Positions 38,544 to 60,694 of a stretch of 64,000 nucleotides of DNA are shown here, one piece after another. Source of the stretch: Streptomyces dengpaensis. Its GTDB lineage: Bacteria; Actinomycetota; Actinomycetes; Streptomycetales; Streptomycetaceae. The notes under the pieces were generated by a model. The model searched no databases, was not told the DNA's origin, and saw nothing but the letters and a program-made list of their open reading frames with translations. Position numbers and translations under genes: made by a program. The stretch spans positions 5,580,001 to 5,644,000 of the forward strand of contig NZ_CP026652.1 of assembly GCF_002946835.1 (NCBI RefSeq), written 5' to 3'. Every line of letters starts with the position of its first letter. The first letter of the stretch is position 1.

Positions 38544-39002
38544 TCACGTCACTCCCGCTGGCTCGGGCCGCTGTTGGGGCGTGGAGTCGGGCTGGGCTTG
38601 CGGAACGGTTTCCCAACTGGGCTCCGGCTGAGCGGCCGGAGCCGGTCCCATGTCGCCCTTCGACGCCCGGCGGAAGGCGGATGTGCCTCGCGAGAGGTCG
38701 TGCCCGATCGCCACGGCGTCGACGTCCGCCGAGGCCCACGTCTGGCCGTCGCGTGTTTCCGTGCGTACCTTCAGCCGCCCCTGCACGACGACCGGATCGC
38801 CCACCGACAGAGACGCTCCCGCGTTCGTCGCGAGTGCCCGCCTGGCCCACACCGTGAAGAAGTTGGTGTGTCCGTCGGCCCACAAGTTCTTCTCGCGATC
38901 CCAGTAACGCGAGGTCACGGCCAGCCGAAACCGCGTCGACGCCCCCGTCGACAACTCCTTGTACACCGGCCGCGTCGCGACATTCCCCACCACGCACACC
39001 AT
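38544..39002 (-). CDS. ssbB: Single-stranded DNA-binding protein (SsbB type), 5' end displaced by prophage
   Basis: A 152-residue OB-fold SSB: VCVVGNVATRPVYKEL, ARFRLAVTSRYWDREKN-like core (here TRFRLAVTSRYWDREKNLWA), TNFFTVWARRALATNAGASL, GDPVVVQGRLKVRTETRDGQ. The long acidic tip of SsbA-type SSBs is absent, as in the Streptomyces SsbB paralogue involved in sporulation chromosome segregation. Reading back from ATG 39002 gives ACC, GTA, GGC, then TAA, so this start is internal Met-5. The original first four codons (Met-Asn-Glu-Thr) lie 21.4 kb away at 60436-60447. It presumably works as a four-residue-shorter protein with promoter and ribosome site (AAGG) donated by the prophage. Confidence 0.9.
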   Translation of the reverse strand: MVCVVGNVATRPVYKELSTGASTRFRLAVTSRYWDREKNLWADGHTNFFTVWARRALATNAGASLSVGDPVVVQGRLKVRTETRDGQTWASADVDAVAIGHDLSRGTSAFRRASKGDMGPAPAAQPEPSWETVPQAQPDSTPQQRPEPAGVT

Positions 39003-39005
39003 GGT
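39001..39005 (-). other. attL
   Basis: Read on the minus strand, the prophage arm CCTAAGGCGTAACC runs into ATGGTGTGC of ssbB. The sequence shared with attR is AC-N-AT (39005 to 39001). It joins the phage left edge to codon 5 of ssbB. Confidence 0.8.
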
Positions 39006-39092
39006 TACGCCTTAGGACTTGGGAGGTTGTGAAGCAGCCGACCCGTTCAGACAAGACAGCGGCCCCGCCCGGTGCTGGAACACCGGACAGGG

Positions 39093-39116
39093 CCTAGGTC
39101 GAACACCTGATCTAGG
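39093..39116. promoter_or_regulatory. CCTAG-type operator O1, between ssbB and first prophage gene
   Basis: CCTAGGTCG (39093-39101) and TGATCTAGG (39108-39116) form an imperfect inverted repeat with 6-bp spacing, 14 bp before the first rightward gene and about 90 bp upstream of ssbB. The motif matches two sites beside the GntR gene. Confidence 0.6.
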
Positions 39117-39129
39117 CAGGAGACGACCC

Positions 39130-39312
39130 ATGACCGACACTACCCCTGACACGAACCCGCCCGCGGACCGCTTCAACTTCGGGCTGGTCCACGACGTCTT
39201 CCAGGTTCTCGAAGCACACGGCTACGAGCGCGGCAGCAACCAGGCCGTCGGCCACGCGGTCGGCATCCTCATGGGCCTCGTGAAGGCGTACGAGGGCGGC
39301 GAGGCGCGGTGA
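39130..39312 (+). CDS. Small prophage protein, unknown function
   Basis: A 60-residue protein ending in a conserved-looking helical segment: DRFNFGLVHDVFQVLEAHGY, SNQAVGHAVGILMGLVKAYE. AGGAG seven bases before the ATG. It overlaps the next small gene by four bases (GTGA). Such short proteins occur next to excision and regulation genes of actinobacterial phages and integrative elements. No domain recognised. Confidence 0.75.
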   Translation: MTDTTPDTNPPADRFNFGLVHDVFQVLEAHGYERGSNQAVGHAVGILMGLVKAYEGGEAR

Positions 39313-39479
39313 ACGCCGACCCCGCCCGCGAAGAGGCCGAGTACGAGCGCTGGCTGAACGAGATGGCCGCGGCGCTGCCCCAGGGCCGCGAGAAGGCCGA
39401 GCGGATGGCGCGTATGAGCTGCGTCAGGCGTGCCTTCGGGCTCCCCGACGACCCCGCCCAGACTGAGGTAGCCACGTAG
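39309..39479 (+). CDS. Small prophage protein, unknown function
   Basis: A 56-residue charged protein (MNADPAREEAEYERWLNEMA ... CVRRAFGLPDDPAQTEVAT) starting at GTG 39309 in the overlap with the preceding stop, so translationally coupled. Mostly helical, no known domain. A strong terminator follows 11 bases after the stop. Confidence 0.68.
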   Translation: MNADPAREEAEYERWLNEMAAALPQGREKAERMARMSCVRRAFGLPDDPAQTEVAT

Positions 39480-39489
39480 CAGACGACGA

Positions 39490-39530
39490 AGCGCCCCCCG
39501 CTCCCGACGACTCAGGGAACGGGGGGCGCT
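39490..39530. terminator. Bidirectional terminator between convergent small genes
   Basis: AGCGCCCCCCG (39490-39500) and CGGGGGGCGCT (39520-39530), an 11-bp perfect stem with a 19-nt loop followed by GTCTTGT. Confidence 0.85.
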
Positions 39531-39541
39531 GTCTTGTGGGC

Positions 39542-39748
39542 TTACCGCTGGACCTGCGCCGTCCAGATGCGGGCCATGATCCGAAGGACGACAGGGTCAA
39601 TCAGCTCCACCAGGTCGACGTGATCGCGGTGCGCGTAGATGTCCCATCCCGGACCGCTGTTGCCGAGTTCGTGAGCGACCAACACCGCGTCTTCGGGGTC
39701 GGTGATCGGCTCGTCGCAGTGTCGGCAGACGCGCACCGTCGCGGTCAC
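39542..39748 (-). CDS. Small prophage zinc-binding-like protein
   Basis: A 68-residue protein with an N-terminal CRHCDEPI motif, then a histidine-rich middle (VAHELGNSGPGWDIYAHRDH) that could complete a small zinc site. GTG at 39748 overlaps the stop of the upstream gene (GTGA), so the two are coupled. No family recognised. Confidence 0.65.
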   Translation of the reverse strand: MTATVRVCRHCDEPITDPEDAVLVAHELGNSGPGWDIYAHRDHVDLVELIDPVVLRIMARIWTAQVQR

Positions 39749-39966
39749 CGGCTGCCACCCGCGGCGGTGCGCGCTTCCTTGTACTGTCGCCACAGTTCCG
39801 CGCCGCTCTCGCAGTGACCGCCGATAGCCTGGCAGCCCTCGCACTCCAGCGCGTGCGTGACGTAGCGCCTATAGGTGTTCAGCACCTTCTCGGTGACGCG
39901 CGCGACATGAGCCGGGACCATGGCCCGCGCGCCGCTTCCCCGTTGTTCGATCTCGTGCCTTGCCAT
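39745..39966 (-). CDS. Small prophage protein with cysteine cluster
   Basis: A 73-residue protein. VARVTEKVLNTYRRYVTHAL leads to ECEGCQAIGGHCESGAELW, with CxxC and a further Cys-His, suggesting a zinc site. ATG at 39966 has GGAGG eight bases upstream; an ATG 15 bases earlier is less well placed. First gene of a two-gene leftward unit divergent from the GntR repressor, with operators O2 and O3 between. Confidence 0.7.
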   Translation of the reverse strand: MARHEIEQRGSGARAMVPAHVARVTEKVLNTYRRYVTHALECEGCQAIGGHCESGAELWRQYKEARTAAGGSR

Positions 39967-39987
39967 CGGCCCCGCCTCCATGACTGC

Positions 39988-40021
39988 TGTCCTAGGTCAG
40001 ACCGTAGCGTGACCTAGGACA
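39988..40021. promoter_or_regulatory. CCTAG-type operator O2
   Basis: TGTCCTAGGTCA (39988-39999) and TGACCTAGGACA (40010-40021) are perfect 12-bp inverted repeats around a 10-bp spacer, immediately upstream of the leftward small genes. Confidence 0.75.
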
Positions 40022-40068
40022 GAGTCTCAAGGCATCTGCGCAACATCCCTCGCAGGGATTACCCGTGC

Positions 40069-40094
40069 CCTAGTACAGTCGCCCGTGCACTAGG
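40069..40094. promoter_or_regulatory. CCTAG-type operator O3
   Basis: CCTAGTACA (40069-40077) and TGCACTAGG (40086-40094), one mismatch, 8-bp spacer, 22 bp before the GntR start. Probable autorepression site. Confidence 0.65.
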
Positions 40095-40116
40095 TCACGC
40101 GCCATCAGGAGTCGCA

Positions 40117-40866
40117 ATGCCGGACACAGATCAGCCTCCGTACATGCAGGTTGCCGAGCGCATTCGCCGCCGCATTCTTGACGGCCAGCTGAAGGAGGGC
40201 GCAAAGCTGCCGCCACAGCGCGAGCTTGCGCAACAAGAGGGCGTTGCAGTCGCCACGCTCGGCCGCAGCCTCGATCACCTTCAGGTGGAGGGGTACATCG
40301 TCACCTCGCGCCGCGGAACGTTCGTCGCCAACGCGCCGTCTGTGGCGCCCAGTTCGTACGACCGCATCACGCGGGTACTGCGTACCGGGTCTGTCCTCGG
40401 CGAGGGCGAGACGATGCTTGTCACGGCTGCCGAGCTGGTCGCCCCGCCGCAGTACGTTGCGGAGATCTTCGACCTGGACGAAGGCGATCAGGTGGTGCGC
40501 CGTCAATGGCACACCGGCAAGGGCTCCAAGCGCCTCATGCTCGCCGTCACCTGGTACCCGGCGCGGTTCGCTGCCCTCGTACCGGAGCTGCTGTCGACGG
40601 CGCCGGGCAAGGGCACAGGACTGCTGCCGCGTATCCAGGAGGCCGCTGGACGGCGCGTCACGGCGGGTCGGGACGACGTCCACAGCCGCGACGCAGACGA
40701 GCGTGAGGCGAGCTTCCTGGGCGTCCGCGTCGGGTCGCCCATCCTGGCCGGCGCGCACCGCCTATGGGACGACCAGGGCGTCATCGAGTACGGGGAATGG
40801 TGCCTGCCGTACCGGCTGACGGTGGGTTACGAGTACAGCTTCGAAGCGGTCCAGGACGGCGCCTGA
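40117..40866 (+). CDS. GntR/HutC-type repressor of the prophage
   Basis: A 249-residue regulator. The N-terminal winged helix is classical GntR: YMQVAERIRRRILDGQLKEG, AKLPPQRELAQQEGVAVATL, DHLQVEGYIVTSRRGTFVAN. The C-terminal half is a UTRA-type effector domain (LDEGDQVVRRQWHTGKGSKR, GVRVGSPILAGAHRLWDDQG, YGEWCLPYRLTVGYEYSFE). GntR repressors of this kind (KorSA-like) control actinobacterial integrative elements. The three CCTAG inverted repeats around it suggest it silences itself, the leftward pair and the leftmost rightward pair. Confidence 0.88.
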   Translation: MPDTDQPPYMQVAERIRRRILDGQLKEGAKLPPQRELAQQEGVAVATLGRSLDHLQVEGYIVTSRRGTFVANAPSVAPSSYDRITRVLRTGSVLGEGETMLVTAAELVAPPQYVAEIFDLDEGDQVVRRQWHTGKGSKRLMLAVTWYPARFAALVPELLSTAPGKGTGLLPRIQEAAGRRVTAGRDDVHSRDADEREASFLGVRVGSPILAGAHRLWDDQGVIEYGEWCLPYRLTVGYEYSFEAVQDGA

Positions 40867-41223: not shown

Positions 41224-41637
41224 TTAGTCGATGATGAAGGCCGCGTGCAGCCGGAGAGTGGTCGTGCCAGTTCCGGCCGTGCCGCCGATGTTCGATGACG
41301 CCGTCCGGAGGGTGCAGATTCCGTCAGTGCCGATGACGAACCCGCCCTCGGAGATCCCGTTGTCCCACGGCCCGTTGATCGTCCCGTTCGTGGGACGCCA
41401 TCCCGCGGGAACGGTGCAGATCTGCGTGTCGGTGATGTTGCCGCTGGTCTGCGTGATGTCGGTGCCGGTGCGCGCCATGAACATGTCCAGCACAATGACC
41501 TTCCCGGACTTATAACCGCGAAAGTCATTGACGCTGAACCCCGACGCGGCCACAAGCCCGCTGGCCGTGGTCGTGGCGTCGATGCCGTCGTTGAGGCGCG
41601 CCGCGGTGATCGTCATACCGGCAAGCCAGTTGGTCAT
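41224..41637 (-). CDS. Tail tip/fibre-like protein
   Basis: A 137-residue beta-rich protein at the end of the tail module. MTNWLAGMTITAARLND is the start typical of short actinophage tail-tip or fibre proteins; GWRPTNGTINGPWDNGISEG and a Ser/Thr/Gly-rich end (IGGTAGTGTTTLRLHAAFI) suggest a beta-sandwich receptor-facing domain. It starts nine bases after the minor tail protein. It is the last gene before the strong terminator. Confidence 0.75.
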   Translation of the reverse strand: MTNWLAGMTITAARLNDGIDATTTASGLVAASGFSVNDFRGYKSGKVIVLDMFMARTGTDITQTSGNITDTQICTVPAGWRPTNGTINGPWDNGISEGGFVIGTDGICTLRTASSNIGGTAGTGTTTLRLHAAFIID

Positions 41638-41646
41638 GCGAACCCC

Positions 41647-44400
41647 CTACAAGGCGACGATCGCCGGATGAGTGAGACGGACATCGGTGCCCGCCAGCTG
41701 CGCCTTCACAACACCGTTGACGCTTCTCGTGACGGTGAACGTCTGAGGACTGGCCGCGCCAGTGATCGCGGTGACGCGCATGACCTCGCCCGCAACGGTG
41801 ACGTCGAACGGCATCTCCGCGCCGGACGTCGTCCAGATGGGGCCCGACGTCGTGGCGACGCTGATAGACGTGGCCGTGCTGGTCGCGCCCACGCTCAGCT
41901 CGCTGCCCTCGGTGTCCGCCTTGCCGACCGTGGTGTTGTCGGCGGACGCGACGTCGAAGGGCCGCGCCGGAGTGCAGTTGAAGTCAAAGCCCCACTCGAA
42001 CTGGTCGATGGTCTCGGTATAGCCCTGCATCAATAGATCGATCGTGTCGGGCGGGAGCCACGCGGGCGGGTTGCTGATGGTGATGCGGTCGCCCAGGTCC
42101 AGCGCCGTCACGGACTCGATCAGGCTCGGCGCCGCGGATAGTTCCACGTGCAACACCGGGTACCGGGTCACGTCCTGCGTACCCAGCCACAGGAGCCATC
42201 CGGCGTGGTCGTCAGCCTGGTCGTCCTCGAACAGATTGAGCGTCACCGACTCGTCGTAGCGCCCCACCCCGTCCGGCGGCGCCAGTACCGACAGCGCCCC
42301 CGTGTCGAGCGTGACGCGGGCTGAGCTGCCCCCGGTACGCGTGACTGTGACGTCGTTGCGTACGGCCTGGTCGTCGTCGACCGGTTCGAGGGGCGGCGTC
42401 ACGTGGCCGGCTGTCGTGTAGCTCAAGGCCAGCGCGGGCGTCTGGTTGCACATGCCCGCAAGGTCCCTGTACTGGAGAGCCACAGAGTCGCGCGCCTCGT
42501 ACAAAACGCCGTGATCCGCGTCGGCGCACTCGCCCAAGAGGTCCAGCAGGGGTGTAGGCAGCTGCGCGCCCACCGGGGTTGCGCCGTCCCCATACGCGAG
42601 CAGAGGTACCGACTCTTCGTCCGTGAGCCTGACGAGACGGTCGCCCGCGGTCTCCCCCGCCCACGCGGTGACGGCGCCGTCGTATGCGAAGGTCGTCTCA
42701 GACCCAAATACGGCGATGTGTCCGATAGCCATGCCGTCGATGTCTGCTGAGTAGCCGTCCGGGGGCGAACTGACGGCGAGGGGGCGACCCGTTGCGCCGG
42801 TAAAGGTCCCGGATATCTGGCCAGCGTCGCCGCCGACGTCCGTCCACTGGACTGCCCAGTGAACATCACTGCCGCTCGTACGGATCTGGAGTTCGGCCTG
42901 TATCCACTGGTTATAGAGATCGGTGCTCGTCACGAAGTCGTTCGTGAAGACGGTGACGCCGTCGCTGTCCTTGCCAAGGACGCGAGTCAAGTCGTTGCGG
43001 GTCTGGACGTACCACTCAGCGACCGTGCCCGTGCTGAGGACGCGCATGAAGGTACGGAGCGTGGTGTTCACCGTGTCGAGCCGGTACATCCAAGTGACGT
43101 TCCACTCAGTGACCACGCCTGCAGGGGTAGGGACAGTGCCTTTCAGCTCACACGGCGTAGTGGTCGAACTGTTCAGCGTCGGCAGCGCAGTGGAGCTGGC
43201 CAGGGTGTCGACGGCCGCCCAGCGCGCGGGCGTCAGCTTCAGCGGCCTCACGCCCTTGATGGGCGAGTACGCGCGCGTCGCCGTACTGCCCTCCTCCGCC
43301 GGCCAGTACGCGAGCAGCGGCTCAGAGGCGAACGACGGGATACGGCGCCGCAACGTCGACTGAAGCGGCGACGCGCCCTGACCGAGTCGGCGCATGATGC
43401 CCGCCGCTTCGACCTGTACATATACGTCCATGCCGGACACGTCCCAGCGGGCCGGCCACGAAGAGACCTCGCCGACGAACCGTGCCTTGCGGTTGGTGAT
43501 GGTGGTGCTGGCGCCGACCGTCCAGGTCTTGCCAGTGCCGTCCGCGAACGACGTGGCGCCCGGCGTCTGCACGCGGAAGTTCGGGTTCGCAACCACGGTG
43601 CCGCCGATGCTGCTGCGCAGCTCGAAGGCGTGCACCGCCCCGGACGAGCACGGAAACGCAAGGTCTCCCCAGCCGTCGCCGGCGCGGACAGGCGCAGTGC
43701 TGTTGAAGATGCTGGTCGTCCCCGCGGTGGTGACGGCGCTCCCAAGCTGCGTCCACGTGCCACTGATCGAGGGCGCGGTGTAGAACGTCACCACGTTGTT
43801 GCCCGCGCCGTCGTTGACGTCCAGCGTGACCCGCACAGCGAGCCGGCCAGAGGGCGGCAGCGGCAGCGCGGCCGTGCAGTCCTTCTGAATGGTCGTCGTG
43901 CCCGCCGCAGACCATTCGAAGTGCAGCCGCTCGTCACGCATCATCAGGACCCACGACCGCTGATTGCCAGTGATGAGCCCCTTACCGCACAGCTCGACAG
44001 AGCCCGCGGCATTCCAGTTGCTGAGGGTCGCCTCAAAGCGGATGTCGATATCGCCCGTGATGTCCAGCGCAGCGACGTCAGGAGTACTGGCCCCGTTGTT
44101 CGAAGTCGTCGTTCCGGTCGTCGCAAGGTAAGAGTCACCGGCGTTCACGGAAACCCTGATCGGAGTGTTTCTGCCTATGAGTCCGTAATAGGCGCCCGTG
44201 GGATTCCGGGGCGAGTACTTGCCGTTGCGGTTATTGAAAGTCAGCTTGCACTTCGTGGGGTCGACGCGTGACGCCCAGTCGCCGCGCCCCCGCTCAATCT
44301 CGATGGGGTTACGCAGATAGACGTCAGAAGTGACGTCCGTCCACGTGCCCCCGAGGTTCAGCTCTACCTGCGTTGCAAGGGGAGTCGTCGGGAATGCCAT
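41647..44400 (-). CDS. Phage minor tail protein
   Basis: A 917-residue protein following the tape measure, where Dit/Tal-type distal tail proteins lie. The N-terminus (TQVELNLGGTWTDVTSDVYL, RGDWASRVDPTKCKLTFNNR, NGKYSPRNPTGAYYGLIGRN) is the standard actinophage minor tail motif. A concanavalin-like middle and a C-terminal region (MQGYTETIDQFEWGFDFNCT) follow. It probably combines baseplate hub and receptor-binding parts, since no separate Dit is visible. GC lower than the host. Confidence 0.85.
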   Translation of the reverse strand: MAFPTTPLATQVELNLGGTWTDVTSDVYLRNPIEIERGRGDWASRVDPTKCKLTFNNRNGKYSPRNPTGAYYGLIGRNTPIRVSVNAGDSYLATTGTTTSNNGASTPDVAALDITGDIDIRFEATLSNWNAAGSVELCGKGLITGNQRSWVLMMRDERLHFEWSAAGTTTIQKDCTAALPLPPSGRLAVRVTLDVNDGAGNNVVTFYTAPSISGTWTQLGSAVTTAGTTSIFNSTAPVRAGDGWGDLAFPCSSGAVHAFELRSSIGGTVVANPNFRVQTPGATSFADGTGKTWTVGASTTITNRKARFVGEVSSWPARWDVSGMDVYVQVEAAGIMRRLGQGASPLQSTLRRRIPSFASEPLLAYWPAEEGSTATRAYSPIKGVRPLKLTPARWAAVDTLASSTALPTLNSSTTTPCELKGTVPTPAGVVTEWNVTWMYRLDTVNTTLRTFMRVLSTGTVAEWYVQTRNDLTRVLGKDSDGVTVFTNDFVTSTDLYNQWIQAELQIRTSGSDVHWAVQWTDVGGDAGQISGTFTGATGRPLAVSSPPDGYSADIDGMAIGHIAVFGSETTFAYDGAVTAWAGETAGDRLVRLTDEESVPLLAYGDGATPVGAQLPTPLLDLLGECADADHGVLYEARDSVALQYRDLAGMCNQTPALALSYTTAGHVTPPLEPVDDDQAVRNDVTVTRTGGSSARVTLDTGALSVLAPPDGVGRYDESVTLNLFEDDQADDHAGWLLWLGTQDVTRYPVLHVELSAAPSLIESVTALDLGDRITISNPPAWLPPDTIDLLMQGYTETIDQFEWGFDFNCTPARPFDVASADNTTVGKADTEGSELSVGATSTATSISVATTSGPIWTTSGAEMPFDVTVAGEVMRVTAITGAASPQTFTVTRSVNGVVKAQLAGTDVRLTHPAIVAL

Positions 44401-44411
44401 GTCAACTCCCC

Positions 44412-46376
44412 TTACTCGAACAGTGCGTTGACGCTGCCGCGTCCTTCGACGCTGACCATCTTCCGAATGCGCCGCTTCAGATAGGCGTCGTCGGCGTCGA
44501 CATGGAGATACACGTCAACTCGGGTGCCCGCCCCGCCTACAGGCAGCGGGGCAACTCCCGCACCCCTGGGCAGACTCAGGACTTCCGGCCCACGCTCACC
44601 GACCATCGCCATACCGCCGCGGGTGATGAGACCGCCCTTGGCGAGATAGGGAATGTTCGGCGTGCCGATCGTCACTCTCGGAAGACTCTTGCCCATGAAC
44701 GAGCCGCCGCCGATGCTGAATCCGAAGTTGTTCCACTTACCGATGACCCAGTTGATAGCGGACCGGAAAGCGTTCTTCACTCCGTTGAACATGCCGCTCG
44801 TGGCGCGTCCGATCTTGCCGGGGAGGCCGCGGAAGAATCCGATGAAGCCATCCCACTTGCCGCGGACCCACGAAAGCATTCCGCCGACTACGGATTGCAC
44901 CTTGTTCTTCGTTGAGTTCCAGGCGCCAACTACGGCGTCCCTGACCATGCCCGACCATCGCGGGATCGTCTGCGTGAAGAAACGGCCGATCGGCCCGAAC
45001 ACCTTGTCACGGATGAACGACCAACTAGCCGATACGGCAGTCTTGATAGCGCCCCATGCGACTTTCCATATGGTCTGGAACCATGTCGTCTTCGTGGCGA
45101 TAATGACAATGATCGCGATCAGAGCGACGATGCCAACGATGATCCACGTAATCGGGGAAGCGAACAGGGCGCTGTTCCACAGCCATTGCGCGGCCGTGGC
45201 AACCGCGGTGGCAGCCGACCAGGCAGCCTGAGCGGCAGCCCACGCCATCATCCCAGCCTTGACGGTGAGGACGACAGCCGCGATGCCGCCGATCGCGTAA
45301 GCGAGGGGCTCGAAGACGCCCTGGTTCTCCATCGCGAACTTGATGAAGTGCCCGGCTATCTCCGAGAGATCTCCGACCACCTTCCGCTTAAAGCTCTCGA
45401 TGGCAGCCTTCGGGTTGTCACCGAGCGTCTTCGCCATCTTGTCCGCGGCGCCCCCGACCTTCCCGAGGCTGTCAGCCGCCTTGGACGGGTCAAGTGACAT
45501 CATCGCCTTCCCCATGTCTTCCCACTGCGTACCGAACAGTGCGACGCCCGCAGCGTTCTGCTTTACCGGGTCCTTCATGGCGCGGAGCCTGTCCAGGGTT
45601 TCGTCAAGTGCCTTGTTCGCTCCGGGGCCACCCGCCGCAATCTTCTTCGACATGTCGTCGGCGCTGAGGCCGATCAACTTGAAGCCATCGGCGGTCGTCT
45701 TGCTCCCGTCAATGGCCCTGATGCCGAATTCCTTGAAGGCATCCGCCACGATGTCGGCATCGCGGGCGCCACCCTTGAGTCCCTGACTGATTAGCCCGAT
45801 TGCCTGTGGGCCGTCGATGCCCAGCTTCCTGAACTGAGTTGAGTACTCATTGAAGGTGTCAAGGAAGTCGCCGGACTTGTCGGCGCCCTTCTGGAAACCC
45901 ACGGTAAGAAGGTCCATGGCTTCGTCGAAGTTCTTCGCCATTCCGGTCTTGACCATCTGGCCGGCCGCGTACGTACTCGCCGTCAAGTCCTGGTCGAATG
46001 CATCCGACAGAGCCATTACCTTGACCGTGGCGCCCTCAAGCCCGCCCTGCGCCTTCGAGGTGTCGCCAATGTTCATATACACGTTCTTGATGGCGTCGTT
46101 GACTTCCGCGGTGGACTCGCCCCACGCGCCCTCGTACACCTTCGCCGAGACCTTCGAAAGCTCTGCCGCCTTGGCCGGTCCGACCCCGAGCTGTGCGGCC
46201 AACTTATCGTTAGCCGCTTCCATATCGAGGTTGGCCGCAATGCCGACGCCCAGCGCTGCGGCCACGCCCGCGCCGATACCGGCAGCCGCCGCATCGAACT
46301 TCTCGCGGACCTTCTCCAGCGTCTGGCCGGTGTTGTCGCGTGCGACCAGGTTGAAGACAAGAGAAACATCCGACAT
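44412..46376 (-). CDS. Tape measure protein
   Basis: A 654-residue tail length protein. The N-terminus is predicted coiled (TLEKVREKFDAAAAGIGAGV); a TMP-type region carries GKAMMSLDPSKAADSLGKVG. Two long hydrophobic spans occupy the middle (AYAIGGIAAVVLTVKAGMMA; WIIVGIVALIAIIVIIATKT). The C-terminus has GNFGFSIGGG-like and GGLITRGGMAMVGERGPEVL, the usual tape-measure end. For a phage, 654 residues implies a fairly short tail, on the order of 100 nm by the general residue-to-length rule. It follows the tail chaperone genes, as expected. Confidence 0.9.
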   Translation of the reverse strand: MSDVSLVFNLVARDNTGQTLEKVREKFDAAAAGIGAGVAAALGVGIAANLDMEAANDKLAAQLGVGPAKAAELSKVSAKVYEGAWGESTAEVNDAIKNVYMNIGDTSKAQGGLEGATVKVMALSDAFDQDLTASTYAAGQMVKTGMAKNFDEAMDLLTVGFQKGADKSGDFLDTFNEYSTQFRKLGIDGPQAIGLISQGLKGGARDADIVADAFKEFGIRAIDGSKTTADGFKLIGLSADDMSKKIAAGGPGANKALDETLDRLRAMKDPVKQNAAGVALFGTQWEDMGKAMMSLDPSKAADSLGKVGGAADKMAKTLGDNPKAAIESFKRKVVGDLSEIAGHFIKFAMENQGVFEPLAYAIGGIAAVVLTVKAGMMAWAAAQAAWSAATAVATAAQWLWNSALFASPITWIIVGIVALIAIIVIIATKTTWFQTIWKVAWGAIKTAVSASWSFIRDKVFGPIGRFFTQTIPRWSGMVRDAVVGAWNSTKNKVQSVVGGMLSWVRGKWDGFIGFFRGLPGKIGRATSGMFNGVKNAFRSAINWVIGKWNNFGFSIGGGSFMGKSLPRVTIGTPNIPYLAKGGLITRGGMAMVGERGPEVLSLPRGAGVAPLPVGGAGTRVDVYLHVDADDAYLKRRIRKMVSVEGRGSVNALFE

Positions 46377-46380
46377 CGAG

Positions 46381-46524: not shown

Positions 46525-46529
46525 GTGCT

Positions 46530-46940: not shown

Positions 46941-46948
46941 GGGTCCCC

Positions 46949-47859: not shown

Positions 47860-47870
47860 GGCGATACTCC

Positions 47871-51958: not shown

Positions 51959-53168
51959 TGGCGTCCCTTTCACTTGCGAGCAGTTCGAGGAACGCGCGGC
52001 CCTCTGGGCTCAGTTGCTGTTCGTCGGGCGGTACTGGCGCGGGCTGTGGTGCGAGCGACTTGTAGACCTGGCCGGCGCCGTTCGGAAGGGGCGCCAGATT
52101 CTCAAGGGCGCGCACTTCGTCAACGCTCATCCATCCGTTCTGAAGTGCCAGAGAATAGACCTCGTAACGCGTCCTCGTGTCAACGCGAATCATGGCGTCG
52201 ACATTGAAGCGCATCATCTGTCGGCCGGCTAGCTGGTCAGAGACCGCGTTCTCAATCCTGACCAGCCACGCACGAAACGTCAGCGTCGTGAGGTTGATCG
52301 TCTGCTGTTCGACGTTGGCGTACGTGACGGAGCCGCCGCCCTGATCGCCTCCGACCATGCCCGGCGGAACGCCGTAGATCGACGCAATAGCCGTGGCGTT
52401 GAGCCGCCGCGTCTCGATGAATTGAGACTCATTGGGATTGACGTCAAGAGCCGTAAAGTCCCAGTCGTTACCGATGACGATGGGCTTTCCGGAACGAATC
52501 GCAATCGAGAGCCTATTACGAATCTCTTCCGACTCTTCCGGGTTGATCGTCTTGGCCGAGTTCTTCATGACCGCCGGAGGCGTGCCGCCGTTCTCGAACC
52601 ACCTGCGGCCGTATTCGGTCGCCGCGACATTCTCACCGAGCGTGCTGGCAAACCACTGAATGGGCGACAGGCCGACTACACAGCCAGGCATCACGAACCA
52701 CGGGATGTGAAATACGTCTTCCGTCGGAAGTGGCATGCCCTGCCAGTGGTAAATAGGCTCCGTGGGCCGCTCTTCGTCCACCCAAACGTCATCAGGGTGA
52801 AGCCATTCTATATTGACGGGGAATCCGAAATTGTCCCTTGCCGTGATGAGGCCGTACGCATTGCCGCGGGCCGCGAGTGAGACCACGCACTTATGCAGCC
52901 ATTGAAACAGATTGTCCCGAGCGGCCGGACGGAACAGCAGATCAGGCAGAAAGGGATTCGGTAGCCTGGTCGCGGCGTTCCGCTGGAACGTCTGCACAGG
53001 AAGCGAAGCGATGTTGTCGGCAAGAATTCTCCAGCACGCGAAGAGCGGAACGATCCTCCCCGCCGTCTGGCTTGACACCTGACTCGGCATCGCCCCGCCG
53101 ACGTCCCACGGCAGCGAGGTAATCGCGCGCTCCTCCGTCCTGCGGAAGAGACGCCGGGTCCACTTCAT
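51951..53168 (-). CDS. Phage portal protein
   Basis: A 405-residue HK97-type portal. SQTAGRIVPLFACWRILADN near residue 34, LVSLAARGNAYG-like VVSLAARGNAYGLITARD, GLSPIQWFASTLGENVAATE, FIETRRLNATAIASIYGVPP, and the RNLSL-like segment are family marks. ATG at 53168 follows AAGGGG by about eight bases; the first ~28 residues of the longer frame lack the family sequence. It forms the DNA gate of the head. Confidence 0.92.
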   Translation of the reverse strand: MKWTRRLFRRTEERAITSLPWDVGGAMPSQVSSQTAGRIVPLFACWRILADNIASLPVQTFQRNAATRLPNPFLPDLLFRPAARDNLFQWLHKCVVSLAARGNAYGLITARDNFGFPVNIEWLHPDDVWVDEERPTEPIYHWQGMPLPTEDVFHIPWFVMPGCVVGLSPIQWFASTLGENVAATEYGRRWFENGGTPPAVMKNSAKTINPEESEEIRNRLSIAIRSGKPIVIGNDWDFTALDVNPNESQFIETRRLNATAIASIYGVPPGMVGGDQGGGSVTYANVEQQTINLTTLTFRAWLVRIENAVSDQLAGRQMMRFNVDAMIRVDTRTRYEVYSLALQNGWMSVDEVRALENLAPLPNGAGQVYKSLAPQPAPVPPDEQQLSPEGRAFLELLASERDANA

Positions 53169-53178
53169 ACGGGCCCCT

Positions 53179-54714
53179 TCAGAAGACGGAGTTGAGAACG
53201 TCGTAGTCATCGAGCACCGCAGCGCCCTTGGCGAGCAGCGCCCAGCGGGCATTGGTCACCGCGACCAACGGGGCGATATCGACGGGTGAGTTAGTGCGAT
53301 CCAAAACCCACGCATCGCCATTACGCCTTGTACGGGCCGCATTTACCGCAGCCGTCAATGGCGCTTGGTCCAGGTGCGCGACGGCGCCCTGACGGACCGC
53401 GTCAGCGAACTGGGCAGCGGCCTCGCTCGCGTCGCCCGTGCGCAGCACGACCAGGTGCCCGCGGTGCGGGTTGCCCTTGTCTGCGGGCACCGTGATGCCC
53501 GCCGCCTCGATGTCGTCTATGAGGCTCTGCGAGGGCGCCCCAGAGCCGGCCACAGCGACGACCAGAGGGCGGCGGCGCTGCGACAGGAGCGCGAGCGCCT
53601 CAGCGACCCACGCGGTACCTGGACGGCGGGCGACCACCTCAAGGTGAGTGCGGCCGTCAGCGCGCTTCGAGGCGACACCTATCGACGACGACGAACGGTC
53701 CTGCGCCACGTCGACCGCGAACACGAGATCAGCGCCCGCCTGCGACGTCTCGTCGACCAGCTTCGGCCAGGCCTCACGCGGGATATTCGGATCGCTGATT
53801 GGGGTCGGCATTCTCGTCCGATTCAAATACGCCCTGTCGAATTCGGGCGCATCCATCGAGTCGAGTTCGCCGCGGATGACTTCCTCCTTGGCCGTGATTC
53901 CGAGCGCGGGCATACAGGTACGCCAAGTTTTCGGGTCATCACGCGGGAGATCGTCAGGAGCAAACCATTCGAAATAGGCGACCTGCGACCATTGACCGGT
54001 GGCCCAGCCGCGCTCGATAAGCTCGCGGCCCTGCTTACGCTTGTTATTAAGGAACGTCGCCTTCGTGTCGCCGCCTGCGGAAGCCCACCACATTTGCGCG
54101 TTCTGGCGCGTCAGCATTGCGGGAGACATCGACTGCTCGACACGATCGTCTCTATGGGCAAATATCTCGTCCATCATGCCCAGGTCGAGCGGCGGACCGT
54201 GCCCGGCTTTCTCGGTATTACTGACGATCCCAAGGCGCGAACGATTCGACTTCCAGATGATGGCTTCATTGCCCGTCGTCTTCCGCGGGTGATATCTGCC
54301 GAAGAGCCTGGACGCGTCCATCTTGGCAAGGAATTCGTCTTCCCACCGCTTGCGCGCATCGATACGCGTCTGTGCCGAGTAGACGATGTTCTGATTCGGC
54401 CAGGCCATCATGCGGTGAATCATCACCGTCAAAATCGTCTCGGTTTTGCCCTGCTGCCTCGGGACACTCAGGCCCACTTTGCGGTGGAGAAACAGCCCAG
54501 TATCGGGGTCGACCTCAAGGGCCGTATCCAACACATATTGCTGCCACGCCATCGGCTCATGGCCAAGAGCCCGCATCACCTTGGCAGCAGCACCGCCCAG
54601 GGTGGGGTGTTCGAATCGGCGCGGAGTTCCCCAAGCCGGCGGACATTCAAGCCCGTACTCGCGGCGCAGGTCTTCGGCGAAGCTACTCGGGGGCCGCCAG
54701 ATCTCCGAACTCAT
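53179..54714 (-). CDS. Terminase large subunit
   Basis: A 511-residue DNA-packaging motor. ATPase part: the Walker A-like motif is LSVPRQQGKTETIL near residue 88, with MIHRMMAWPNQNIVYSAQTR following and the Walker B-like LDLGMMDEIF near 178. The nuclease part starts with LVFAVDVAQDRSSSSIGVAS near 332, with further acidic residues near 395. ATG at 54714 has GGGGGGA six bases upstream and overlaps terS by 32 bases. Confidence 0.92.
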   Translation of the reverse strand: MSSEIWRPPSSFAEDLRREYGLECPPAWGTPRRFEHPTLGGAAAKVMRALGHEPMAWQQYVLDTALEVDPDTGLFLHRKVGLSVPRQQGKTETILTVMIHRMMAWPNQNIVYSAQTRIDARKRWEDEFLAKMDASRLFGRYHPRKTTGNEAIIWKSNRSRLGIVSNTEKAGHGPPLDLGMMDEIFAHRDDRVEQSMSPAMLTRQNAQMWWASAGGDTKATFLNNKRKQGRELIERGWATGQWSQVAYFEWFAPDDLPRDDPKTWRTCMPALGITAKEEVIRGELDSMDAPEFDRAYLNRTRMPTPISDPNIPREAWPKLVDETSQAGADLVFAVDVAQDRSSSSIGVASKRADGRTHLEVVARRPGTAWVAEALALLSQRRRPLVVAVAGSGAPSQSLIDDIEAAGITVPADKGNPHRGHLVVLRTGDASEAAAQFADAVRQGAVAHLDQAPLTAAVNAARTRRNGDAWVLDRTNSPVDIAPLVAVTNARWALLAKGAAVLDDYDVLNSVF

Positions 54715-54925
54715 CGTCGATCCCCCCGCCATGCCCCTGCGTCAGTTGCTGAAGGGTCAAGCGGAGTTCGCGGCTGAGGGCGGACATCTGCCGTCCCTCT
54801 TCGCCGCCGCCCTGGTCAATCTCGCGGGCGACGCGGTACGCGAGTTCGGCGAGCGTGGGCTCTACGCCCAGCAGCTGGCCGAGGTCTTTAACGTCGTCAC
54901 GGACTGCGGACTCGACGGGACCCAC
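54683..54925 (-). CDS. Terminase small subunit-like protein
   Basis: An 80-residue helical protein (VESAVRDDVKDLGQLLGVEP, LAELAYRVAREIDQGGGEEG, ALSRELRLTLQQLTQG) overlapping terL by 32 bases. Its size, helical repeat and position match actinophage small terminases, which recognise the packaging site. No classical HTH is evident. Confidence 0.7.
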   Translation of the reverse strand: MGPVESAVRDDVKDLGQLLGVEPTLAELAYRVAREIDQGGGEEGRQMSALSRELRLTLQQLTQGHGGGIDDEFGDLAAPE

Positions 54926-55056: not shown

Positions 55057-55344
55057 TTATTCAGCGAACCAATCACGCGAAGTTTTCAACGTGCTGACCT
55101 CACTGAGTAGCTTGTCAGACTTCTCGCCATTGCAGTTGCGCCCGCACGTCGGACACTTCTTCACGCCATGAGCGGGGCGCAGGTTATTGATGTCGAGCGG
55201 GTCGCCACCCTTGGCAATTGAGATGACGTGATCAGCAACATCTGCATTGGGATGGCCGCAGATATGGCAGATGTCGCATGCGCTCAGTAGCTGAGCACGC
55301 ACCTGCCGATATGCATAGCTCGAATAGAGCGGGTTGCCTGCCAC
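55057..55344 (-). CDS. HNH endonuclease
   Basis: A 95-residue HNH nuclease. Two cysteine pairs (CDICHICGH, KKCPTCGRNC) frame the motif ADVADHVISIAKGGDPLDIN and NLRPAHGVKKC, with the catalytic DH and the N and H of the HNH fold. GTG at 55344 is chosen; longer readings overlap the HTH gene without family sequence. HNH genes beside terminase occur in many cos-type phages, where they cut together with the terminase. Confidence 0.85.
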   Translation of the reverse strand: MAGNPLYSSYAYRQVRAQLLSACDICHICGHPNADVADHVISIAKGGDPLDINNLRPAHGVKKCPTCGRNCNGEKSDKLLSEVSTLKTSRDWFAE

Positions 55345-55348
55345 GTGG

Positions 55349-55687
55349 TCACCGCCCCTGTGCGGGGCGGGCAGGCGGGCTGTAGCGGACGCGGGGCGGG
55401 GCAGGGAAGCGGGGGGTGTCCGCGTTGTACTCCTGGCCGGCCAGCTCCCGCAGGTCCACAGTCTTGTGACCGCGGCTGCCACGCAGCCTGATACGCCCCT
55501 CACGGTGCCACCTGTACAGGGCGCCTGTAGGCCTACCGCACCACGCTGCCGCCTCTTCCACTGTCGCCCAGCGCGGGCCCGTGAGAGCGGGACTGAGGCC
55601 ACGCCGCGGGAGCGGCCCGGGGGTCGTCGTTACCTGGGCGCCCTCGCCTGCTGGAGAGCCATCAGACAGCAGGCGAGGGCGAGTCAT
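55349..55687 (-). CDS. Prophage helix-turn-helix protein
   Basis: A 112-residue protein with a MerR/excisionase-type HTH: PRWATVEEAAAWCGRPTGAL then YRWHREGRIRLRGSRGHKTV. ATG at 55687 with GGAGG eight bases upstream. The proline-rich C-terminus is probably disordered. It could be a regulator of late genes or an excision factor for the integrase; there is no way to tell. Confidence 0.75.
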   Translation of the reverse strand: MTRPRLLSDGSPAGEGAQVTTTPGPLPRRGLSPALTGPRWATVEEAAAWCGRPTGALYRWHREGRIRLRGSRGHKTVDLRELAGQEYNADTPRFPAPPRVRYSPPARPAQGR

Positions 55688-56364: not shown

Positions 56365-56593
56365 GTGTGACTTCAATGCGATGCGTCCGTGTGACCGTGA
56401 GCGCCCCCTTATAAGGGGGGGCGCAATCACACACATGTGACTGGTCACGTGTGACCGTGTTGGTCACGCGGGCTGACCAGGCCTTTTACTGGCCGCCGCG
56501 TGATCCATCCATCCTTCGAATGGCTTGCCGTGTGACGTCACACGCATGACCTGGGCGGATCCGAACCGATCTGACGGGCCGTCACGGTCACAC
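56365..56593. repeat. GTGTGACC repeat cluster (iteron-like)
   Basis: GTGTGAC motifs in both orientations: GTGTGACCGTGA at 56389-56400, its reverse complement at 56582-56593, GTGTGACCGTGT at 56449-56460, the palindrome GGTCACGTGTGACC at 56443-56456 and the perfect palindrome CGTGTGACGTCACACG at 56529-56544. A GC hairpin with TTATAA centre lies at 56401-56424. The cluster borders the helicase gene. Confidence 0.7.
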
Positions 56594-57910
56594 GGGCCGA
56601 GCTGCACCTTTCTCCGTTACCACCCACGACCCGGGGAAGCCGGTCCGAAGGCCTTCCTGATGGGCGGCATAGCCCAGCTCGGTCAGAGTCTTGAGCCCCC
56701 TGGCGCACGTCTCGCGTACGAGTCCGTGTCCGTGCTCCTTCTTGACGCGGTCGACCAGCCGCTCGATCGTCTCGTACCCCTTAGCCTGTTGAAGCGCCTG
56801 CAATAGCTTCCATTCGGCGGGCTTCAGCTTGACCTCCTGGCCTCCCTGGTCGGGCATGGTGTCGATCGTCACGCTGTAGTGCATTGGCGAGTTGAGGTCG
56901 GTGGGGTCTTCGGCGCGGACGCGACGGATCAGGTTCACGCCAGTGTCGGCGATCTCGTCTCCGGCGAACTGCCAGTCAAGGACCACGGTCGATTCCAGCG
57001 TGACCGGGTTCGTGCTCTTGCTCTTCACGGCCACGGAGATCAGGAAGCGGCCCCATTCGGCAGGGCCTACGCCGCTGCTGCGGTCGTGCCCGTTGCCCTG
57101 TCCGCCCTTGTTCCAGTGGTGCGAGATCATCAGGCTCGCTCCGGCGTCCTGGACGACGCGCTGAACGTTGCCGAGCAGCGCGCCCATGGAGTACAGGTCG
57201 CTGCCCTTGGCGCCGCCTGCCGAGAGGTACAGGGGATCGATGATGACCAGCTTGGGGCGGTACTGCTCAACTGCCTTGCGCATCAAGTGCAGGTGCTGTT
57301 CGTCGTTCAGCTGCGGTGCACGGCAGCACACCACAATGTCAAGCGCATCGGTCTGCTCGTAGCTGAGCCCCTTGGCCGCACCGATGGCGCGAAGGCGTCG
57401 CGTCAGCTTGGCGTCGGAGCCCTCTCCGTAGAAGACCAGTACGCAGCCGGGCGTGCGGCACGGGAAGGCGCCCATCCACGGCATTCCAGCCGCGCACGAT
57501 ACGGCCGCGTCGCCCACTCCCCAACTCTTTCCCGCCTTCTTCTCCGCCGCCATGATTCCGTAGTCACCGGCCACTATTACCGGCTCGAACAGGAACTCCC
57601 TGGGCGGGCGCGTGTCGACGTCGCGTGCAATGTCGGCCAGCGTGCGGAAGACGAGATCCGGCGTGGGCCCTTCTTCGGTGGACTTAGCCGCGTCACGCGC
57701 CTCTTCGGCTTTCTTGATGTAGGTGTGGAACGTGGAAGGGTCGGTGATAAAGCCCGCCGCGGTCCAAAGGTCCGTCCTGGTGGCGTCGTTGAGTTCGCCA
57801 TTCGTGATGGCGTCCGCGAGCGCACGCAGGGTCGCGTCATTGGGATTTTCAGGGCGGGCAAAGATCGGCTCTTCTTGTGCGGACCCCTGCGCCCCGTTAA
57901 AGTCGTACAT
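56588..57910 (-). CDS. RepA-like AAA ATPase/replicative helicase
   Basis: A 440-residue RecA-fold ATPase of the RepA/AAA_25 helicase group. Walker A is IMAAEKKAGKSWGVGDAAVS near residue 117 (AGKS), Walker B is LVIIDPLYLSAGGAKGSDLY near 222, and MISHHWNKGGQGNGHDRSSG near 258 supplies the sensor histidines. The C-terminal 70 residues form a winged-helix (LKPAEWKLLQALQQAKGYET ... LKTLTELGYAAHQEG). It probably replicates the element after induction. It is flanked by the repeat cluster. Confidence 0.88.
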   Translation of the reverse strand: MYDFNGAQGSAQEEPIFARPENPNDATLRALADAITNGELNDATRTDLWTAAGFITDPSTFHTYIKKAEEARDAAKSTEEGPTPDLVFRTLADIARDVDTRPPREFLFEPVIVAGDYGIMAAEKKAGKSWGVGDAAVSCAAGMPWMGAFPCRTPGCVLVFYGEGSDAKLTRRLRAIGAAKGLSYEQTDALDIVVCCRAPQLNDEQHLHLMRKAVEQYRPKLVIIDPLYLSAGGAKGSDLYSMGALLGNVQRVVQDAGASLMISHHWNKGGQGNGHDRSSGVGPAEWGRFLISVAVKSKSTNPVTLESTVVLDWQFAGDEIADTGVNLIRRVRAEDPTDLNSPMHYSVTIDTMPDQGGQEVKLKPAEWKLLQALQQAKGYETIERLVDRVKKEHGHGLVRETCARGLKTLTELGYAAHQEGLRTGFPGSWVVTEKGAARPV

Positions 57911-58471: not shown

Positions 58472-58827
58472 GAATGCACTCCCGAGTCAGAGCGCTATCC
58501 CCCGTAGGAGTGCGCTTCGATGACTCGCGTGCAACGCGTATGCCCCTCCGCAGCCGATATCCGAGGCCACTACCCCTGTCGGGGTACTCGGTCTTCGACT
58601 CTCCACAGCCGTGGAGTTAGGAGGCGTCCGGTCAATTCCGGCGTTCGCGAGAACTTACTAAGCACGAAGGTACGTACTGGGGCTTATAGAAGCAATGCCC
58701 CCTTGGCGGGGTTGTGTCACGTTATGTCGTGATGTCCGGTATGACGTCCCAAGTCTGTAGCTTCCTACGAGAGTTGTGCCACGCGAGAGCCCCCGGCGCG
58801 AAGCCAGGGGCCCAAGGTCGCAACCGG
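58472..58827. other. Early promoter region and integrase terminator
   Basis: 356 bp without a gene. GCCCCC-GGC/GCC-GGGGC hairpin at 58789-58811 should terminate the integrase transcript. The rest probably contains the promoter of the early leftward operon; I see no confident -10/-35 pair. Confidence 0.5.
58789..58811 (-). terminator. Terminator of the integrase gene
   Basis: GCCCC with GGGGC and, inside, GGC with GCC, around a CGCGAA loop, located 17 bp past the integrase stop. Confidence 0.6.
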
Positions 58828-60381
58828 TCAGACGTCGCGAAGCCACCGGATCCGCTCTGTGACGGGCACGGAGACGCGGCCCGGCGCTGGCATGACCCGC
58901 ACCTGCCCGAGCAGCCCAGGGGACAGCAGCAGCGCCGCAATGGCCCGCTGTCGCCGTACATCCAGGGCCGTCCACCACGACACCACGTCGGCCTCAGGAT
59001 CGGTCGGCAGGAGTCCCGCCAGCGGATTGGGTGCGTCCGACTTCCGCAACGCAGCTTCTAGCTTCGTGATCTCCAGCTCGAACGCCTCCATATCGTTGGT
59101 CCGCGCGATCCGGGCGCGAGCCGTCTGCGGCGTGGGCGCCTCTTCGAGCTCTTTCAACTCCTTCTGAAGGCGGATCAGTTCGGCGCGCACCGCGGCCTCT
59201 TCGGCGGACGTGTCACCGGCTGGCCGGCTCAGTGCCGCGTGGCGGTGCGGCGCCGCGACGTACGTCAGGATCACGCCCAGCTTGGGCGGCAGCGGCTCGC
59301 CGTTCTCGGGGTCGACGCGCTCAAGCTCACCGACCAGGAACGCGTCTGTCTCATCCTTCGGAATCCGGGAGCATCCGCCCTTTTGGCACTCGTAACCGAG
59401 GCCGCGCCTGTGCTTGCTGACGACCATGGGGCCTTCGCATGAGTCGCACCGCAGCGTTGTGGACAGCGCCCACCTGACGCCCCCGCCCATGTAGGTGCGC
59501 CGCGACGGGTCGGCGAGCACCGCTTGCGCGCGGTCGAACAACTCGCGGGAAACGACGGGCGTCCAGCCCTCCCAGCGGGGAAGCTCCTGACCGTTGAAGA
59601 TCCGGACACCCGCGTACACCGGCCGCACAAGCAACGCCCGGAGGTGCTGCGCGGTGAACGGGCGGGACGGGATGACCTCGCCGTTCTCCGTCTTCTCCGG
59701 GATCCACCAACCGCGCCTCTCCCAATCCTTGGCGATCGAGTAGATCGGCTCAGGGAGCTTCCCCCCGTCCCCGGCAACGCGCGTGAATAGTCCCTCGATC
59801 CGGGGGCCCCAGACTGAATCCGGGTACTGCTTCACGCAGCGCGGACGGCCGTCAATGCTCTCGTAATCGCGGCTGTAGCCGAGTGGCACGCGGCCGTGTG
59901 GCCGGCCGTCCCTGGCTGCGGAGTTGATGCCGCTCCGGGTGCGCTTGGACAACAGCCGGCTCTCTTTCTCTGCGTCGTTGATGCCGCCGATCAGGGAGTG
60001 GCGGTCGTCGTAGTTGGCCGGATTGAACGTGCGCTCCACGCTGGTGACGTGGATCAGGTAGCCGCCTGTCTCTACCGCGTCGATGAGCGCAACGCCCTTG
60101 CCCGTCTCGCGGGCCAGTCGGCTGATCTCCCACAAGACCAAGACGTCGCCGGGGTCGCCGAACGCGCCGGATCGCAGATCAGCCATGAGCCGCTCGAAGT
60201 CGTCGCGCGCCCTGGTCGCGTACTTGCTGGCGCTGCCGGTGTCCCTGTACGGCTCGCCCCACGACCAGGGGCCGTGCTCCTGCTCGGCCGTGAGGTTCTC
60301 GGTGTGCTGCCGGTCGATGCTGCGGGCGGTACGCCCCTTGCCCTTGGACACACGCAAATACTCGCGCGCTGTTGCTGTCAT
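58828..60381 (-). CDS. int: Large serine integrase
   Basis: A 517-residue large serine recombinase. The catalytic domain starts YLRVSKGKGRTARSIDRQHT; the nucleophile serine is the one in RVSKG. LVLWEISRLARETGKGVALI near 90 and RDGRPHGRVPLGYSR near 160 are conserved. The recombinase domain lies at residues 190-290. The zinc domain has CDSCEGPM and CQKGGC. A coiled-coil follows (EEAAVRAELIRLQKELKELE). It starts about 50 bp from attR, as integrases do. ATG at 60381 with GGGGGG seven bases upstream; an ATG two codons earlier is equally possible. Confidence 0.95.
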   Translation of the reverse strand: MTATAREYLRVSKGKGRTARSIDRQHTENLTAEQEHGPWSWGEPYRDTGSASKYATRARDDFERLMADLRSGAFGDPGDVLVLWEISRLARETGKGVALIDAVETGGYLIHVTSVERTFNPANYDDRHSLIGGINDAEKESRLLSKRTRSGINSAARDGRPHGRVPLGYSRDYESIDGRPRCVKQYPDSVWGPRIEGLFTRVAGDGGKLPEPIYSIAKDWERRGWWIPEKTENGEVIPSRPFTAQHLRALLVRPVYAGVRIFNGQELPRWEGWTPVVSRELFDRAQAVLADPSRRTYMGGGVRWALSTTLRCDSCEGPMVVSKHRRGLGYECQKGGCSRIPKDETDAFLVGELERVDPENGEPLPPKLGVILTYVAAPHRHAALSRPAGDTSAEEAAVRAELIRLQKELKELEEAPTPQTARARIARTNDMEAFELEITKLEAALRKSDAPNPLAGLLPTDPEADVVSWWTALDVRRQRAIAALLLSPGLLGQVRVMPAPGRVSVPVTERIRWLRDV

Positions 60382-60433
60382 AGTCATCCCCCCAGCCCGG
60401 TGCGACTCTTGCACCACTGGCTAAGACGATACT

Positions 60434-60438
60434 ATCGT
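60434..60438 (-). other. attR
   Basis: Read leftward, ATGAACGAGACG of ssbB runs into ATAGTATCGTCTTAG of the prophage. Shared core with attL is AC-N-AT. The ssbB frame continues only four more codons to TAG. Confidence 0.8.
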
Positions 60439-60447
60439 CTCGTTCAT
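60436..60447 (-). pseudogene. ssbB: Detached 5' end of ssbB (codons 1-4)
   Basis: ATGAACGAGAC(G) encodes Met-Asn-Glu-Thr; after that the phage sequence gives Ile-Val-Ser-Ser-stop. Together with the attL side it reconstitutes Met-Asn-Glu-Thr-Met-Val-Cys. A purine-rich GAGAGGGG ribosome site precedes the ATG. Confidence 0.8.
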
Positions 60448-60694
60448 CGTCCCGAACCCCTCTCCCGTACGAAATGCGTCTGTCGCGGCGACCGCATCCG
60501 CTGCGTTCGCCGCGAGATCAGACTGCCTTCGCCGGGCGGAGCCCGCTGAGCGCTGTGGGCTACCGGCTGGTTGTGGACAACCGCGTCACCCGACGGAGTG
60601 AGGCCACGTCAGCGCACCCCGGCACGGCCGCCGAGTGCGGTCGTCCCACCGGCGGGCGCTCTCGTCATCTCACCTGACAGGCGCCCACGTCGTC
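60448..60694. promoter_or_regulatory. Native upstream region of ssbB
   Basis: 247 bp between dynB stop and the detached ssbB start. It must hold the original ssbB leader and, if present, its promoter. No protein is seen. After integration it points into a short aborted reading frame and then the integrase, and no longer into ssbB. Confidence 0.6.

Follow-up and report, generated by a model that had tools for sequence, protein, structure and literature searches.

The split ssbB locus

The window analysed here is a stretch of 64,000 nucleotides of Streptomyces dengpaensis (contig NZ_CP026652.1, positions 5,580,001 to 5,644,000), part of an 8.7 Mb genome in three contigs; coordinates below count from its first letter. 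It carries a tailed-phage prophage of 21.4 kb (39003-60433) that lies inside the 5' end of ssbB, a gene for a single-stranded DNA-binding protein, at the fifth codon. Along the minus strand the order is dynB, which encodes a dynamin-like GTPase upstream of ssbB (60695-62794; Pfam Dynamin_N, 4.4e-10), then the stranded start of ssbB (60447), the prophage, and finally the rest of ssbB (39002-38544). This remaining part comprises 152 codons from an internal Met5 (MVCVVGNV...; Pfam SSB, E 1.7e-16), and the best PDB match of its product is 4dam (E 1.7e-55), which we take to be the SsbB paralogue of S. coelicolor.

At the left edge the minus strand reads TAA-GGC-GTA-ACC-ATG-GTG, with ssbB opening at 39002 and the in-frame TAA forcing translation to start at Met5 or later. 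At the right edge it reads ATG-AAC-GAG-ACG-ATA-GTA-TCG-TCT-TAG (60447 to 60421), so that the native ssbB start now heads an eight-codon frame (60421-60447, minus strand; MNETIVSS and a stop) leading towards the integrase gene. An initial annotation, made from the sequence, had proposed that a prophage with a serine integrase splits ssbB and leaves it four codons shorter. Its edge letters were found again on re-reading; head, packaging and tail genes together with Pfam Resolvase and Recombinase domains support the prophage and its integrase, and the in-frame TAA with a remaining frame that opens at Met5 supports the shortening. By profile, terminase, portal, head, protease, tail and integrase genes are all present. 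The proposed anatomy is thus nearly right: the split is real and, by the comparisons that follow, the site is settled to the base. An assembly error is unlikely, as both junctions lie within one 8.54 Mb contig and an IMG/VR record agrees with the prophage letter for letter over 18.5 kb, although this record may stem from the same genome and was compared over a part without the junctions.

The uninterrupted site in relatives

Rejoined SsbB matched proteins in 364 of 392 genomes of the genus. Among the 150 best of these the window's ssbB alone aligns from residue 3, the other 149 aligning from residue 1, and none of the 150 shows a second insertion at this site. The two best relatives, G212/L047 and G040/L048 (93% and 92% over 117 residues), carry the uninterrupted site ATGAACGAGACGATGGTGTGC (MNETMVC), which reads on as ATGAACGAGACGATGGTGTGCGTGGTG (MNETMVCVV) with the junction GGGATGAACGAGACGATGGTGTGCGTGGTG. 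The initial annotation had given MNETMVC as the native N-terminus and had suggested the dynB-ssbB junction of prophage-free relatives as a check; both nearest relatives read MNETMVC there.

Start sites were parsed at 26 of 30 loci, the remainder being the window's own and L052, L058 and L069, whose starts fall outside the ATGAACGA pattern and which all align from residue 1. The N-terminus is MNET in 26/26 parsed relatives (the parse itself required MN[ED]), and codon 4 is ACG in 24 of them, ACC in one and ACA in one. The codon 4 rebuilt in the initial annotation, ACC, was therefore most likely ACG, the codon of both nearest relatives. For further relatives, start sites were taken from eight loci out of 19; the more distant L026, L028 and L029 begin with MNDT or MNDA, and L026 has ACC at codon 4. 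dynB and ssbB are neighbours, no more than about 3.5 kb apart, in 18 of these 19 loci, the exception being L028, with no dynB in the stretch examined. The best match to 4dam, the dynB neighbour and the MNET N-terminus together identify the interrupted gene as the SsbB gene of Streptomyces.

Crossover and attachment sites

Taken from the relatives, the host attachment site (attB) would read ACGATGG; the right junction (attR) is host-like up to AT and the left junction (attL) is host-like again from AT, which sets the crossover, on this comparison, at two bases: the AT of the Met5 ATG. In attL these bases lie at 39001-39002 (minus strand), where identity to the two nearest relatives begins and where the dyad described below has its centre; in attR they lie at 60434-60435 (minus strand), as placed by the uninterrupted site and the dyad. 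An ACC at codon 4 would put the same C in both parents, and this is the origin of the ambiguity in the initial annotation, which had a two-base crossover "at AC or AT": the two bases and the AT stand, supported by the ACG codon and the dyad, and AC is unlikely.

The rebuilt phage site (attP) is predicted to read CTAAGGCGTAACC-AT-AGTATCGTCTTAG, with its left arm at 39003-39022 and its right arm at 60414-60433 (both minus strand). A dyad centred on AT matches at 9/13 positions, the figure given earlier, and at 12/20 when extended; the next best centre within the 82-bp stretch reaches 8/20, and centring on AC, with the letters which that crossover implies, gives 3/13 and 7/20. The attB side has no dyad at AT (6/20), so that the att pair consists of a short attP with an imperfect dyad (12/20) around an AT shared with attB ACGATGG. 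Read outward from the core, the left arm is GG-TTACG-CCTTAG and the right arm AG-TATCG-TCTTAG. On the minus strand this places CTAAGG at -13 to -8 and TCTTAG at +8 to +13, and the hexamer TAGTAT begins at the T of the core, on its integrase side.

Related elements carry arms in the same register. The phage contigs L092 and L093, identical over the 200 bp compared and counted as one observation, encode an integrase 55% identical to that of the window, directly preceded by a dyad of 17/20 centred on AC. Since neither stretch matched dynB, ssbB or the comEC-like protein interrupted in other members of the group, we take this dyad to be a free attP; its arms read GG-AAGTG-CCTTAG and GG-AAATG-CCTTAG outward, in register with both arms of the window. 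With their cores set by the L092 register, G296, G381 and the viral contig L091 have CCTTA at +8 to +12, their GG being perhaps host sequence. Five arms from L092, L091, G296 and G381 thus share CCTTA at these positions, three of them as CCTTAG. In a scan of the window with the L092 arms, 9 of 127,974 positions gave at least 10/13 matches; the score is 10 for the left arm and 8 for the right arm. No such arm motif could be placed in the homologues of G324, G049, G373 and G267, and their cores were not placed. For LI integrase, PMC3783163 describes an outer integrase motif displaced by 5 bp from attP to attB; here a shift of this kind gave no clear signal (3 to 6/12). The rebuilt attP had no match among viral contigs, and the attR junction had one among genome contigs, in Kordia, which we take as chance; either collection may omit the source genome.

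The AT core is self-complementary and so departs from the non-palindromic core of serine integrases, a feature that is usual and not strictly defining, so that membership of the class stands. Serine integrases can bring their sites together in either orientation, and strands are exchanged well only when the central dinucleotides are aligned in parallel (PMC3783163). Taken at face value, an AT core should let the phage enter in both orientations, which makes orientation control questionable; one orientation only is seen, in one genome. Within attR, 60424-60440 forms a 17-base inverted repeat (AGACGAT-AGT-ATCGTCT) that combines host and phage sequence and has complementary arms of 7 bases.

The integrase and its group

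The integrase gene (58828-60381, minus strand) encodes 517 amino acids from an ATG at 60381, in a frame that is open to 60417 and has another ATG at 60387; the database copy is also of 517 amino acids. Its Resolvase (PF00239, 2.9e-17) and Recombinase (PF07508, 4.8e-6) domains, both above cut-off, and a length within the expected range of about 450-600 amino acids are those of a large serine integrase. The gene is codirectional with ssbB and immediately follows the upstream region of native ssbB, a placement that the initial annotation missed: its ATG follows the stranded ssbB ATG at 66 bp, after the eight-codon frame that ends in TAG. By position the integrase gene thus stands behind the ssbB upstream region, which may drive it. 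In Streptomyces lividans, the phiC31 integrase on its own brings about excision at low frequency (PMC11784100).

Integrase matches at E 1e-80 or better occur in 7 of the 392 genus genomes, the window's own included, that of G373 being a fragment with a stop; members of the group are 39-69% identical over the matched parts. As further ssbB insertions the homologues were rejected, none of the six lying beside dynB or ssbB in the stretches examined. The genes they interrupt are comEC-like (G296, G381 and L091) or response-regulator/thioredoxin-reductase-like (G049 and G373), where the names comEC and thioredoxin reductase are our own presumptive recognition. In G049 and G373 (L037 and L041) the element joins the gene near codon 12 of the frame seen in relatives and, by our reading of the letters, provides an in-frame ATG of its own. 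The new starts are MSPSQSTVGV-ILTVDDDP and MPPKSSTVGV-IMTVDDDP, against, for example, MAQAADAARTVI-LTVDDDP in relatives. On these readings, the integrase group holds a second case of a site at a gene start that leaves the target frame intact.

In a search of 5.8 billion proteins, in which the 7997 candidates sharing most words were scored and the best 120 of 123 considered, the closest other integrases are 65-68% identical and those named are from Streptomyces. The cluster at 100% identity holds three sequences on two contigs, so that a second contig may bear the same integrase. Among phage records, the best 20 of 151 matches are all below 30% identity. An exact-word search of genome and viral contigs found no relatives, the words probably being too specific, and an alignment query of the viral contigs found three.

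Expression of ssbB in the lysogen

A conserved block lies upstream of the native ssbB start at 60519-60580 (minus strand), on the host (dynB) side of attR, and consists of TTGTCCACA and GGCAGTCTG spaced 53 bp start to start. Among the 26 parsed relatives TNNTCCACA occurs in 22 and GGCAGTCTG in 24, the spacing is 53 in 18 of the 21 having both, and the distance from GGCAGTCTG to the ATG ranges from 74 to 241 bp. The prophage separates ssbB from this block, a putative promoter region. TTGTCCACA resembles the DnaA box consensus, and control of ssbB by DnaA through it is possible. Paradzik et al. in 2013 reportedly found a single S. coelicolor ssbB promoter ~73 bp before the AUG, loss of the gene leaving some spores without DNA. 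PMC6637917 counts ssbB among the genes that respond to sporulation or stress and are poorly transcribed in standard growth.

What now precedes ssbB comes from the phage. The sequence AAGG, seven bases before the ssbB ATG, belongs to the arm motif CTAAGG and hence arrives with the att site; since the crossover AT is the AT of the start codon, integration automatically places it at this distance, where it could act as a weak ribosome-binding site for the Met5 start. Further upstream, within the last 92 bp of the prophage on the ssbB side, lies a terminator-like hairpin (39061-39094, minus strand) with a 15-pair stem, a loop of four nucleotides and the tail GCTGTCTTGT, oriented to stop transcripts heading to ssbB. 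It is the one hairpin found in a terminator scan with 0.3 expected; a 71-nucleotide fold around it has -39 kcal/mol (z -4.1). The 58 bp between its end and the ssbB ATG contain no -10-like TANNNT hexamer, and a sigma-70 promoter scan of 38900-40200 found none. The statement in the initial annotation that ssbB came under prophage expression signals is therefore doubtful, and the sequence patterns make reduced ssbB transcription likelier than a swap to prophage control.

Interpretation and alternatives

We consider the following account probable as a whole, with moderate confidence. A temperate tailed phage with a large serine integrase integrated at the first codons of ssbB as attB, the comparisons placing the crossover at the AT of the Met5 ATG. 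The ssbB frame survives from Met5, and the AAGG left by CTAAGG could act as a weak ribosome-binding site. In the sequence patterns, the conserved upstream block ends up beyond the prophage and a terminator-like hairpin now precedes ssbB; given the lost block, the hairpin and 58 bp with no recognisable promoter, expression of ssbB is probably much lower in the lysogen. The integrase gene, in return, has come to lie behind the native ssbB upstream region, possibly an active one, and excision would restore ssbB exactly. We read the insertion as a down-regulation of ssbB that is reversible by excision, resembling that of SpyCI in mutL.

Several points weigh against this account. No more than 5 T fall within a window of 8 in the hairpin tail, and a fold extended to 121 nucleotides makes the hairpin stand out less (z -2.1). 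An unrecognised promoter could include the -35-like TTGTCT at 39049-39054, and many Streptomyces promoters escape consensus scans. The conserved block is only a candidate promoter of ssbB, and the strain's own codon 4 before insertion is taken from relatives. The ssbB frame is intact, with a ratio of nonsynonymous to synonymous substitution rates (dN/dS) of 0.13-0.15 against the two nearest relatives; because this distance includes time before the insertion, it is uninformative on silencing, and such normal values fit a recent insertion or continued expression equally and do not favour silencing.

The alternative that fares best, though we hold it to be rather unlikely, is the version of the initial annotation in which ssbB is still expressed from a prophage promoter or by read-through, four residues shorter and neutral for the host. 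The intact frame with normal constraint at the codon level, the AAGG seven bases before the ATG and the in-frame start codons that the elements of G049 and G373 leave to their host genes speak for it, and the terminator-like hairpin together with the missing TANNNT before ssbB speaks against it. Less credible again, and in our view unlikely, is a dead remnant unable to excise, with ssbB on its way to becoming a pseudogene. The prophage is only 21.4 kb long and no separate lysis gene (endolysin or holin) was recognised in the frames scanned, as such a remnant would have it; against this, the genes for integrase, terminase, portal, protease, head and tail have open frames, the att arms agree with the related attP of L092, and ssbB is without decay. 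Furthermore, the tape-measure protein has a PHROG labelled endolysin as its best match, followed by others labelled tape measure, so that a lysis function may hide there. A crossover at AC in an original attB with ACC is very improbable: AC is common to both edges, ACC does occur in one of the 26 parsed relatives and in L026, and the related attP inferred in L092 has an AC core, but both nearest relatives read ACG, the AC dyad falls well short of that at AT, and the arm motif is spaced as an AT core would predict.

Returning to the reversible down-regulation of ssbB, it can be extended to a scheme that we regard as a long shot: CTAAGG would double as a ribosome-binding site, integrase would rise in sporulation and excision would then restore ssbB, and the AT core would allow either orientation with different effects on ssbB. 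SsbB serves chromosome segregation during sporulation in S. coelicolor, and if ssbB is silenced here, lysogeny would be a reversible off-switch for such a protein. The attB/attP pair, resolved to the base for a group of integrases present in several Streptomyces, could serve as an integration tool, and its naturally self-complementary core would provide a test of how serine integrases choose orientation.

Relation to known systems

This kind of event has a clear precedent in SpyCI at mutL of Streptococcus pyogenes, whose integrase is of another recombinase class. There too, a phage-like element occupies the 5' end of a DNA-maintenance gene; SpyCI stops mutL transcription from the upstream operon promoter, excision restores it, and for one strain an alternative, element-derived promoter has been proposed to rescue expression (PMC3430984). 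The two differ in host and target gene, and SpyCI excises in step with growth (PMC3430984), whereas the ssbB case is known from sequence. Phage phiJoe and related Streptomyces phages likewise have a serine integrase and a short attP with imperfect inverted repeats around a 2-bp crossover; the core of phiJoe is GG and its site lies in a radical-SAM gene region, 74 bp from the gene end, in contrast to AT at the 5' end of ssbB (PMC5311408). Closer at hand, the group comprising G296, G381 and L091, G049 and G373, and L092/L093 has homologous integrases and other target genes; the core is AC by inference in L092 and by assumption in the comEC group, as opposed to AT here.

Two further elements, Listeria phage A118 and gin, lie inside their genes, comK (made whole by A118 excision) and gerE, whereas ssbB keeps nearly its full frame. 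In PMC3556126 (A118, with a GG core and not AT) and PMC5595907 (gin, whose excision makes gerE whole), the element interrupts a host gene as here. Among the open-licence papers listed in searches on Streptomyces ssbB and serine integrases we found no report of ssbB as an attachment site. As far as the literature was searched, the site, a start-codon crossover with a built-in AAGG, and a palindromic core are new.

Gene content and left end of the prophage

The structural module occupies 41224-54732 on the minus strand and was assigned by PHROGs and Pfam matches. It includes tail and connector genes and runs from two phage proteins of unknown function (41224-41637 and 41647-44400) through the tape measure (44412-46376), major tail protein (47449-48231), major head protein (49926-51173), prohead protease (51278-51973) and portal (51951-53252) to the large terminase (53179-54732). 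Beyond it, on the same strand, lie an HNH endonuclease (55057-55602; PHROGs HNH 1.8e-16, with a weak match to terminase small subunit, 2.2e-5) and a primase/helicase-like AAA ATPase (56588-57910; Pfam AAA_25 1.7e-25, PHROGs DNA primase 1.8e-18). The head protein had no match of at least 60% in 50,697 phage records. Head and portal queries of IMG/VR returned one close record, UViG_2873258297_000004 (L031, L045), identical over the 18.5 kb compared. It ends at 58471 of the window, short of the integrase, and its length of 24,106 bases should reach host genes past ssbB; the IMG/VR boundaries of the prophage look wrong.

Near the left end a GntR-family gene on the plus strand (40117-40866; Pfam GntR 1.3e-14, UTRA 1.6e-9) encodes a candidate prophage regulator. 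Upstream of it, 39987-40022 holds a perfect 13-bp inverted repeat, CTGTCCTAGGTCA and TGACCTAGGACAG, of which the half-site CCTAGGTC is present again at 39093, between ssbB and the first frame on the plus strand; repeat and half-sites are candidate repressor operators. CCTAGGTC occurs three times in the window, always near the left end of the prophage, and 9 of 100 shuffles gave as many, so that a regulator site shared by the GntR gene and the prophage left end is only a lead. A second strong hairpin (39490-39530), with 16-nucleotide arms that are 94% complementary, lies downstream of the small plus-strand genes at this end.

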